In this document: positions 57,447 to 60,173 of the stretch, piece by piece | How the letters are laid out: every line of letters begins with the position of its first letter | Numbering within the stretch: position 1 is the stretch's first letter | DNA from: Nocardia inohanensis NBRC 100128 | GTDB taxonomy: Bacteria > Actinomycetota > Actinomycetes > Mycobacteriales > Mycobacteriaceae | NCBI RefSeq assembly: GCF_001612945.1 | Contig: NZ_BDBK01000018.1 | Location: 1-64,000 of the forward strand | Direction: 5' to 3' | DNA length: 64,000 bases | Notes under the pieces: model-generated | Told to the model about the DNA's origin: nothing | The model's database searches: none | The model's input: only the letters and a program-made list of their open reading frames with translations | Position numbers and translations under genes: made by a program

Positions 57447-58322
57447 ATGACGACTCCGGTGGACCCGTCCTATCGATGGGACGGCGGCGACTTGGACCTG
57501 GACGGCTACCTGTCCCGGATCGGTTTCACCGGTGCGCGCACCCCGACCCTGGCCACCCTGCGGGAGCTGGTCTACACGCACACCACCACCATCCCGTTCG
57601 AGAACCTCGAGATCATCCTCGGCCGCGGTGTTCCCCTGGACGTGGAGTCCTTGCAGGACAAGCTGATCCGGCGGCGGCGCGGCGGCTACTGCTACGAGAA
57701 CGTCGGCCTCTTCGCCGCCGCTCTGGAGCGCCTCGGCTTCGAGTTCACCGGTTTGTCCGGCCGCGTCACCATGGGCGCGCCCGGCCTGCGCCCGCCCACC
57801 CACGCCCTGCTGCGCGTCACGCCCGCCGATGACGATCGCGCCTGGCTCTGCGATGTCGGCTTCGGTTCCGGTCCGCTCGAACCGGTCGAGCTGAACGGCG
57901 AGCGCGGCGAATTCGCCCTGGGCGCTTGGCGTTTCCGCCTGGAGCGCGGGACCGGCGCGCTCGGCAGCGAGCTGTGGACCCTGTACCAGTCGGGTGCGGA
58001 CGGCTGGCTGGACCGCTACACCCTCACCATGAACCCGCAGTACCGGATCGACTACGCGGTCGGCAATCACTTCGTATCCACCTCGCCGCGTTCGCCGTTC
58101 ACCATGCGGCCGTTCGTGCAGCGCTTCGGACCCGAGGTCCATCACCAACTCGACGGCACCACTTGGACAATCGGCTATCCGGACAAACAGGGCGAAACAC
58201 GCGAATTGGAGGCGATCGAACTCCCCGAACTCCTTTCCGAGGTCTTCGACATCGATCTCGACGACGCCGATGCGGCCGTGCTGGCCCGCGGCGACTGGCC
58301 CGCGGCGGCGCGTCCGGAGTGA
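57447..58322 (+). CDS. nat: arylamine N-acetyltransferase
   Basis: A 291-residue enzyme transferring acetyl groups from acetyl-CoA to arylamines or hydrazines. The Cys-His-Asp triad reads C82 in RRGGYCYENV, H119 in PPTHALLRV and D136 in WLCDVGFGSG. The N-terminus has the usual TLRELVYTHTTTIPFENLEI segment. Length is normal for bacterial NAT. In mycobacteria the enzyme acetylates isoniazid and has been linked to sterol-derived propionyl-CoA; no sterol genes are seen here. Confidence 0.95.
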   Translation: MTTPVDPSYRWDGGDLDLDGYLSRIGFTGARTPTLATLRELVYTHTTTIPFENLEIILGRGVPLDVESLQDKLIRRRRGGYCYENVGLFAAALERLGFEFTGLSGRVTMGAPGLRPPTHALLRVTPADDDRAWLCDVGFGSGPLEPVELNGERGEFALGAWRFRLERGTGALGSELWTLYQSGADGWLDRYTLTMNPQYRIDYAVGNHFVSTSPRSPFTMRPFVQRFGPEVHHQLDGTTWTIGYPDKQGETRELEAIELPELLSEVFDIDLDDADAAVLARGDWPAAARPE

Positions 58323-58431
58323 ACATGCGCCCGCGCGCGGCTTCGTGCGCCGGTGCGCGTTCGCAAACTCGCACCGCCCGGACCAGCGGATACGGGTGAT
58401 CTGTCACGCCGAGGTCACGTGAATGCGATCC

Positions 58432-58464
58432 AGATCTCACCGAGATCTCGCTCATATCTCACGC
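58432..58464 (+). promoter_or_regulatory. three 11-bp direct repeats upstream of the Ser/Thr kinase gene
   Basis: AGATCTCACCG (58432), AGATCTCGCTC (58443) and ATATCTCACGC (58454) stand in exact 11-nt register, a pattern typical of OmpR/PhoP-type regulators. A -10-like TACACT (58493-58498) follows, placing the repeats around -40 to -72. Confidence 0.5.
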
Positions 58465-58565
58465 TGACGTCGGCGGGACGCGCTGCGCCCGCTACACTCG
58501 TGCGGGGAAACACGCGGGCAACCGCCTCGTCACAGTCGTCTCGAAAAGAACTTCGGAGTAGTGCC

Positions 58566-60173
58566 ATCGAAACCGGCCAAGTGATCGCAGGGCATTACCG
58601 CCTGGTCGAACGGATTGGTAGCGGCGGCACAGGTGTCGTCTGGCGTGCCGTCGACGAACGGCTGGAACGCTCGGTCGCGGTCAAGCAGATCATTACCCAG
58701 CCGAGCCTGTCGCAAGCCGATAAGGACATCGTGCGGCAGCGCGCCGCGCGGGAAGCCCGCAACGCGGCCCGCTTCCAGCATCCCAATGCCATCGTGGTGT
58801 TCGACATCACCGAGCACGAGGGCGACCCGTGCCTGGTCATGGAGTACCTGCCGTCGCAGAGCCTGGCGGTGGTGCTGTCCGCGCAGGGCACGCTGCCGCT
58901 GCCGCAGGTGGCGCGCATCGGTGAGGCGGTCGCCTCGGCGCTGATCGCCGCGCACCGGGCGGGCATCGTGCACCGCGATGTGAAGCCGGGCAATATCCTG
59001 CTCGGCGACAACGGAGCGGTGAAGATCACCGACTTCGGCATCGCCAAATCCAAGGGTGACGTCACCCTGACCGCCACCGGGCTGATCTCCGGTACCGCCG
59101 CCTACCTCGCCCCCGAGGTCGCACGCGGCGCCGAACCGAGCCCGGCGGCGGACGTATTCGCCCTGGGCGCAACGCTTTTCCACTCGCTGGAGGGCGAACC
59201 GCCCTACGGAACCAACCCCAATCCGCTGGCACTGCTCTACGCCGCGGCCAACGGCCAGATCAGCGAACCGCGCAATGCCGGACCGCTCAGTGATCTGCTG
59301 CTCAGCCTGCTCAGCTTCGAACCCGAGGACCGCCCGAGCATGCTCGAGGTCCGCGACATCATGGCCGAGTTCGCCGAGGTCGGTCCCGACGCCGATGCCA
59401 CCCGGGTGTTGCAGGCGCGCCGCAATGGCGCGGTCGCGGCCCCGCGCCGGCAGGAACCGCCGGCCCCGCGCCCGGCTCCGCAGCGTCAGGTCACCCGGCA
59501 GATGGAACGCCGCCCGTCGGCCAATGCCGATATCCCGACCGGCGCCATGAGCCAGGCCCAGTTGCTGGAGACCCCGCCGCCGCGTCCCGCCGCACCGGGT
59601 GGCCCGCCCACCCACAGCGGTTTCGCGCCGCACGACGAAGAGCCGCGCTCCAAGCGAAAGCTGGTGTGGGCGGCCGTGGTCGCGGCGGTCGTGGTCGCCG
59701 GTGGCGTGGTGTTCGGGATCCTGAGCTCCTCGGGTTCGGATACGCCGAACACCCAAGGCGCCGGGAGCAGCGGTTCCAGCGCCTCCTCGGCTACCACCAC
59801 CGGTAAGGGCACGGCGGGTCTCGGACAGACCAAGAGCGCCTCGCAGGTGTCGGTGCTGTCGGCGGCCGATGTCATCGAGCGCTTCTACGACGGGCTGGTC
59901 TACCAGAGCTTCGACGACGCGTGGAGCCGGCTGACGCCCGCGGCGCAGAAGGCGTACGGCAGCCAGCAGGCGTTCCAGCAGTATTGGACGCAGAACCGGG
60001 TCACTCGCTACTCGAGCATCAGCGGTGCGCGCGGCAATGACAGCAACAATGCCGACGGTTCGGTCGACATCGCGCTGGGCAGCCTCACCGCCGGCGGGCA
60101 GAACAAGTCGCTGAACCTGCGCGTCATCGACTCGGGTGGCGGCAACCTGCTCATCGACAGCGAAACCCGCTAG
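58566..60173 (+). CDS. membrane Ser/Thr protein kinase (PknB-like kinase domain)
   Basis: A kinase of about 535 residues. The kinase domain starts at once (GQVIAGHYRLVERIGSGGTG) with the ATP lysine at about residue 40 (VAVKQI), the catalytic loop GIVHRDVKPGNILL, and DFG in KITDFGIAKSK. The APE-type segment is AAYLAPEVARG. A Pro/Arg-rich linker leads to one helix (VWAAVVAAVVVAGGVVFGIL) and an extracytoplasmic NTF2-like domain; no PASTA repeats. GGAG at 58555 is 7 nt before an ATC at 58566, which fits homologues starting here. The next canonical start is GTG at 58581, and an upstream GTG would extend through the promoter. Confidence 0.9.
   Translation: METGQVIAGHYRLVERIGSGGTGVVWRAVDERLERSVAVKQIITQPSLSQADKDIVRQRAAREARNAARFQHPNAIVVFDITEHEGDPCLVMEYLPSQSLAVVLSAQGTLPLPQVARIGEAVASALIAAHRAGIVHRDVKPGNILLGDNGAVKITDFGIAKSKGDVTLTATGLISGTAAYLAPEVARGAEPSPAADVFALGATLFHSLEGEPPYGTNPNPLALLYAAANGQISEPRNAGPLSDLLLSLLSFEPEDRPSMLEVRDIMAEFAEVGPDADATRVLQARRNGAVAAPRRQEPPAPRPAPQRQVTRQMERRPSANADIPTGAMSQAQLLETPPPRPAAPGGPPTHSGFAPHDEEPRSKRKLVWAAVVAAVVVAGGVVFGILSSSGSDTPNTQGAGSSGSSASSATTTGKGTAGLGQTKSASQVSVLSAADVIERFYDGLVYQSFDDAWSRLTPAAQKAYGSQQAFQQYWTQNRVTRYSSISGARGNDSNNADGSVDIALGSLTAGGQNKSLNLRVIDSGGGNLLIDSETR

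Follow-up and report, generated by a model that had tools for sequence, protein, structure and literature searches.

Results and discussion

The kinase gene and its product

The window, that is, the whole 64,000-nt stretch of DNA that was analysed, carries a Ser/Thr protein kinase gene preceded by a GGAG ribosome-binding site, a promoter core and a set of direct repeats, with a gene for an arylamine N-acetyltransferase (NAT) as the kinase gene's upstream neighbour. The features are collected in Table 1, in which rows are the orthologous loci described below.

Table 1. Features of the kinase locus (positions in the window)
Feature	Position	Strand	Basis or remark
Direct repeats in 11-nt register	58432..58464	+	Candidate site for a transcription regulator; 16/58 rows
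Promoter core CCGCTACACTC, with the -10-like TACACT at 58493-58498	58489..58499	+	Conserved in 44/58 rows
Upstream in-frame GTG after the -10-like hexamer (rejected start)	58500..58502	+	2-nt indel breaks the frame in L001
Shine-Dalgarno core GGAG	58555..58558	+	7-10 nt before codon 1 in 27/27 distinct sequences
Proposed start codon ATC (AUC)	58566..58568	+	ATC in 57/58 rows, ATT in 1
Codons 1-15, synonymous sites near-frozen; possible extended initiation element	58566..58610	+	0.991 synonymous identity
GTG at codon 6 (rejected start)	58581..58583	+	Not ATG/GTG/TTG in 11/58 rows
Ser/Thr protein kinase gene, 535 codons and TAG	58566..60173	+	Profile matches, motifs
Kinase domain, residues 11-262	58596..59351	+	PF00069 (Pkinase), E 2.2e-44
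Probable single transmembrane helix, residues 367-385	59664..59720	+	Top 19-residue hydropathy mean 2.5
C-terminal domain, presumably outer, probable NTF2-like fold	59838..60170	+	Predicted structure, Foldseek

For comparison with relatives, a contig scan yielded 75 loci and ten more genomes were searched by protein. The resulting orthologue set comprises 58 rows, namely the window and 57 loci (L001-L050, L057, L074, L121, L122, L124, L125 and L126), which cover Nocardia, Hoyosella, Amycolatopsis, Prauserella, Saccharomonospora, Thermocrispum and Allokutzneria and also take in further genomes of the same genus and of family f14 of the order. Left out were L075, which matches in its C-terminal part only, L130 (genome G361), where a canonical ATG/GTG occurs in frame 27-30 nt upstream, L132 and L134, in which the N-terminus was not placed, and other related kinases, 37 of which served as the outgroup of a kinase tree.

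The catalytic motifs found in the product (K40 in VAVK, HRD at 136, DFG at 156 and APE at 182) identify it as a Hanks-type Ser/Thr kinase. It resembles the PknA/PknB-type Hanks kinases of Mycobacterium in its kinase domain, in K40 and in the probable arrangement as a membrane kinase with an outer domain, but differs from the PknB type in having a probable NTF2-like C-terminal domain where PknB-type kinases have PASTA repeats. The protein falls outside the PASTA kinase class, with a score of 235.2 for NF033483 against a cut-off of 450 and no PASTA match. The C-terminal domain, of which the predicted structure has a mean pLDDT of 95.8, is common to 20 aligned rows, the window and 19 loci with a full-length match, with 32-95% identity to the window. 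It belongs to no Pfam family above cut-off, and Foldseek gave nothing at E up to 0.001; the best Foldseek matches (E 0.009-0.05) include many NTF2-like entries, with PBP2a/PBP5 entries among them.

Two side observations touch on this domain and on the kinase at large. In the N. abscessus clade (L019:607-2358) the gene directly upstream of the kinase gene resembles, as read from its translation, a penicillin-binding protein, where the window has NAT; the kinase C-terminal domain shows a weak likeness to part of PBP2a/PBP5. Moreover, the own genome (8.1 Mb) holds 55 matches to the kinase at E up to 0.001, a large Ser/Thr kinase set.

Promoter core and direct repeats

The promoter core CCGCTACACTC lies 75-86 nt upstream of the ATC in 43 rows and 133 nt upstream in one; four further rows (L026, L049, L050 and L121) have TACACT without the full core, and ten of the 58 have neither. 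A scan for the sigma-70 consensus found no sigma-70-type promoter. Comparison thus supports the core in most rows, and the -10-like hexamer would place the transcript start so as to leave a GGAG-containing leader of roughly 60 nt.

Three direct repeats in 11-nt register had been described in the initial annotation as standing just upstream of the start. They are real, consisting of AGATCTCACCG (58432-58442), AGATCTCGCTC (58443-58453) and ATATCTCACGC (58454-58464), but their position has to be corrected: they lie 102-134 nt before the ATC, upstream of the promoter core, with 28 nt between their end and the -10-like hexamer. A relaxed pattern finds the repeats in 16 rows and a strict one in 13, all near the window's species, and in 16 of the 16 rows having them the first TCTC precedes the start of CCGCTACACTC by 54 nt; they are absent from other Nocardia clades. 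The triple repeat has one exact match in the 8.1 Mb genome and three further sites with 3 mismatches, and a reversed control pattern gave two matches, which puts the triple repeat above chance; with one exact site and three others at 3 mismatches, the idea that the repeats mark a regulon was rejected. Direct repeats in this register presumably point to a putative OmpR/PhoB-type regulator.

Start codon and ribosome-binding site

The initial annotation had proposed that translation begins at an ATC, and its observations in the window stand. The gap between GGAG and ATC is 7 nt, reading from the ATC puts the ATP lysine at residue 40 (VAVK being residues 37-40), and a correctly spaced ATG, GTG or TTG is absent, the next in-frame GTG (codon 6) lying 22 nt after the GGAG. 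It had also argued that an upstream GTG would read through the probable promoter: of the upstream in-frame GTGs (58353, 58419 and 58500) the first two do precede TACACT and the third comes directly after it, ahead of the expected transcript start. A further GTG (58561-58563) stands 2 nt after the GGAG, out of frame, and runs into a TGA 7 codons on. In frame, GC at third codon positions rises from 0.56 ahead of the ATC to 0.86 behind it, and the frame from the ATC runs to the TAG at 60171-60173.

Paralogues place a start codon at the same position. The nearest paralogue in the own genome (L077, 53% identity) has ATG exactly in the ATC column, as does its equivalent L139 from a different genome of the genus, and an Actinophytocola kinase (L067) has GTG there; since ATG, ATG and GTG fill this column, the ATC occupies a start-codon position. 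Several other related kinases have a GTG start one codon earlier.

Codon 1 among relatives

The check that the initial annotation had named was which codon close relatives carry here, with GTG at 58581 as the competing outcome. Codon 1 is ATC in 57 of the 58 rows and ATT in one (Hoyosella), with GGAG 7-10 nt ahead of it in all 58, and the codon at 58581 is variously GTG, TTG, CTG, CTT, CTC or AAG, an outcome in favour of the AUC. Counted over distinct sequences from -20 to +45, 26 of 27 have ATC and one ATT, the gap between GGAG and codon 1 being 7 nt in 11, 8 nt in 13, 9 nt in one and 10 nt in two. Because membership of the 58 rows was decided with ATC/ATT in view, two counts independent of the codon are given: ATC or ATT is present in 54/54 rows of the well-supported (starred) clade of the kinase tree that contains the window, and in 39/39 scan loci with a match from residue 1 to at least residue 533. 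From this comparison we conclude with high confidence that translation of the kinase starts at the AUC at 58566.

On a tree built from 95 kinase domains, two label changes account for the 58 ATC/ATT rows; none of 500 shuffles came as low, and a single change suffices in 26% of 200 bootstrap trees. The long-branched rows with other starts (L065, L067 and L068) sit beside the base of the ATC/ATT rows. A single old origin of the ATC start is possible on these trees.

Wider scans left codon 1 free. One pattern was run on 397 genomes of the order, a set that may overlap in species with that of the contig scan, and a longer form on 394 genomes of the class; both forms require GGAG, and relatives without it would escape them. 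The order-wide pattern had any match in 76 of the 397 genomes, and the longer form matched in six of the 394, all ATC and all six inside the order. Every match recognisable as this kinase site in the two scans has ATC. A CATCGA site typical of this kinase occurs in 39 genomes of the order, the own included, judged mostly from the printed match alone. Nine of the ten genomes of the own genus in the order sample match; the tenth (G309) has the ATC, but its codon 6 is AAG and so falls outside the pattern. Among 30 loci extracted in the order-wide scan, 17 were read and none of these 17 is this kinase. The match in G282 resembles the GTG-start paralogue L068, and L097 was dismissed as a false match in another gene. 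A search of plasmid records found nothing useful.

Constraint on the first 15 codons

Conservation extends beyond codon 1. In the 15 Nocardia rows with NAT, synonymous codon identity over codons 1-15 is 0.991 for the kinase versus 0.606 for NAT; in the same rows the values from codon 31 onwards are 0.675 and 0.670, respectively. The 13 rows with an MDMPI gene likewise give 0.933 for codons 1-15 of the kinase versus 0.593 for MDMPI. The neighbour control was made without L009 (NAT) and L018 (MDMPI), in which the alignments began at residues 3 and 5. The starts of these neighbours are ATG in 14 of 15 NAT loci, L009 reading GCG in an alignment that begins at residue 3, and ATG in nine and GTG in four of 13 MDMPI loci, one GTG being extrapolated from residue 5. 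As its synonymous identity exceeds that of the neighbours, the first 45 nt of the kinase gene appear to be held by more than the protein sequence.

Alternative starts

Canonical codons exist in many rows, but none of them serves the whole family. Between the nearest upstream stop and the ATC there is no in-frame ATG/GTG/TTG in 26 of the 58 rows, among them L001, which the tree places nearest to the window; at codon 6, 47 rows have GTG or TTG and the remainder CTG (six), CTT (two), CTC (two) or AAG (one). Every row retains at least one of the two kinds of alternative (26 have none upstream, 11 others have no usable codon 6 and 21 keep both), and the case against them therefore rests on the fact that none could serve all rows. 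The CTG at codon 6 in six of the 11 rows could in principle initiate. A reading restricted to canonical starts gives four different beginnings, at -213 in the window, -42 in L019, -51 in L032 and codon 6 in L031, and gene callers that accept ATG/GTG/TTG only must assign inconsistent starts in this kinase family.

One alternative that keeps the AUC is that ribosomes reach it by reinitiation after a short leader frame ending right behind the GGAG. The triplet after the GGAG (58559-58561 in the window) is TAG, TGA or TAA in 49 of the 58 rows, a leader frame opening with ATG/GTG/TTG within 75 nt and ending at this stop is possible in 40, and in clade B a 9-codon frame, ATG...TAG, is retained ahead of the ATC as a possible leader peptide. 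Against it, the window itself has no ATG/GTG/TTG within 75 nt in the frame that ends after the GGAG, the triplet is AAG, TAC, ATT or AAT in the remaining nine rows, and at the 39 order-wide kinase sites it is TAG in 15 but no stop (CAG, TGG, AAG and others) in 24; the start codon would, moreover, remain AUC anyway. We regard reinitiation as an improbable account of the site in general; it may assist in some lineages, perhaps in many relatives, and is not the conserved feature.

Structure in the leader was also considered. Seven RNA folds (three of the window and one each of L001, L014, L030 and L019) did not clearly surpass shuffles in stability, with z from +1.11 to -1.45, and the two Rfam matches in 58300-58800 scored well short of the gathering thresholds. 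Close to the probable transcript start, the folds predict a hairpin at 58514-58525 in the window and at a similar place in L014, L030 and L019, where the sequences differ; it is possibly a stabiliser of the 5' end.

A start at codon 6 (GTG 58581; TTG or CTG in relatives), giving the product MIAGHYRLVERIG, would leave the kinase fold intact, is compatible with the GTG or TTG of most rows and is where L031 begins under canonical starts. Such a start would lie 22 nt from the GGAG with no other ribosome-binding site, and it would not be leaderless either, because TACACT sets the transcript start far upstream. The codon is AAG in L121, CTT in L049 and L050 and CTC in L057 and L126, and in codons 2-5, which line up with the N-terminal ends of paralogues, most differences fall at third positions or exchange similar residues. 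We consider a codon-6 start very unlikely.

Even less credit is given to an upstream in-frame GTG or ATG as the start, with the ATC as an internal Ile codon. The window frame is open as far as GTG 58353, and an in-frame ATG stands 42 nt upstream in clade B; in L121 this ATG is replaced by ACG, with ATC and GGAG retained. The 26 rows without such a codon before the stop, L001 included, speak against it. So do the indels that shift the leader frame among relatives, of which a 2-nt one separates the window from L001 between promoter core and GGAG; the spacing between GGAG and ATC itself differs by one base between Nocardia clades. Furthermore, in the 11 rows without usable codon 6, the printed upstream candidates (the first one or two per row) have no GGAG within the 16 nt before them. 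Comparison of relatives thus led us to reject both the upstream starts and the codon-6 start.

A sequencing error, one missing base that hides a normal GTG start at 58561 (with one extra base, GTG CC(N) ATC would be in frame), is refuted by the identical bases in many independently sequenced genomes and by L010 (ACCGCC) and clade B (GGCGCC), which have no GTG at that place, and its probability is negligible.

Proposed control of translation initiation

IF3 is the fidelity factor that rejects starts poorly paired with the initiator tRNA, which matches an AUC at two bases only. The start of the kinase would thus be a poor one, and with ATC/ATT in all 58 rows and no drift to ATG, GTG or TTG it has very probably been selected. 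That a poor start codon persisted through such long evolution suggests that kinase production is deliberately limited.

The gene of IF3 itself shares the codon. Throughout the sample of the genus (30 of 30 genomes) infC starts ATC after AGGAGG, with no in-frame ATG/GTG/TTG within the 60 nt examined in 16 of them; the own infC (L116:1473-1485; contig C18 153982-153994) reads AGGAGG CCCC ATC AGC ACT GAG. The start of infC is ATT in E. coli and ATC in Streptomyces (PMC5472188). The conserved AUC start is common to infC and the kinase gene, whereas infC has the longer AGGAGG site and is autoregulated, and the kinase, which is not a translation factor, has GGAG. As infC also starts ATC, it is plausible, by analogy, that the AUC signals regulated translation of the kinase.

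A close parallel is sigR of Streptomyces coelicolor, for which a GTC start has been proven by mutation and Western blot and is repressed by IF3 (PMC5472188). Both are actinobacterial regulatory genes with a conserved non-canonical start and a ribosome-binding site, in both the start is misassigned by canonical-start rules, and in both lineages infC starts ATC. They differ in codon (GTC, reported for Streptomyces sigR only (PMC5472188), not ATC) and in product (a sigma factor, not a kinase), and in that start and IF3 effect were proven for sigR, while the kinase start is deduced from comparison. Given that infC shares the ATC and that the GTC of sigR is repressed by IF3, a scarce kinase that follows IF3 would be the simplest mechanism.

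Another gene outside the translation machinery, pcnB of E. coli, has an AUU start that limits its level. It resembles the kinase gene as a non-translation gene with a weak AUH start and differs from it in codon, function and phylum.

We therefore consider it quite probable, though on comparative grounds, that the ATC is the true AUC start of a membrane kinase, served by a GGAG leader, with a low output that depends on IF3 and with a start kept by selection. On this model, transcription from the conserved promoter core would yield the short leader; kinase output would be low and dependent on IF3 activity, because IF3 discards mispaired starts; the level of the kinase would move in step with infC through the shared start codon ATC; and selection would have kept the weak AUC start throughout the kinase subfamily.

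How far such a start is used for regulation can be read in two ways. The AUC could be a fixed dosage limit, with IF3 lowering the kinase constitutively and nothing regulated through the AUC. Dosage limitation alone would suit a weak start that is retained over the entire tree, and for sigR, oxidative stress could not be shown to enhance translation from the GTC start (PMC5472188); the near-frozen synonymous sites of codons 1-15 hint, on the other side, at more than a weak codon, though not necessarily at regulation. We would put this fixed limit at slightly below an even chance. Alternatively, AUC, GGAG and the near-frozen 45 nt together might form a dedicated element that ties the amount of an envelope sensor-kinase to IF3 activity, a tentative reading that also stands somewhat short of even.

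Experimental characterisation exists for very few non-canonical start codons, and the full set of IF3-repressed genes is not yet known (PMC5472188). The kinase would add a signalling gene to the short list of non-canonical starts. If the proposed control is true, a kinase subfamily in Nocardia, Hoyosella and Pseudonocardiaceae shares AUC-based translational control with infC and represents an uncharted output of start-codon fidelity. A literature search of titles and abstracts, with subscription journals largely outside it, found nothing on this kinase or on any AUC-start kinase. Conserved non-canonical starts are known as a kind; new is such a conserved start on a signalling kinase. In the lineage of the window, the repeats would lay a lineage-specific transcription control on the conserved AUC start.
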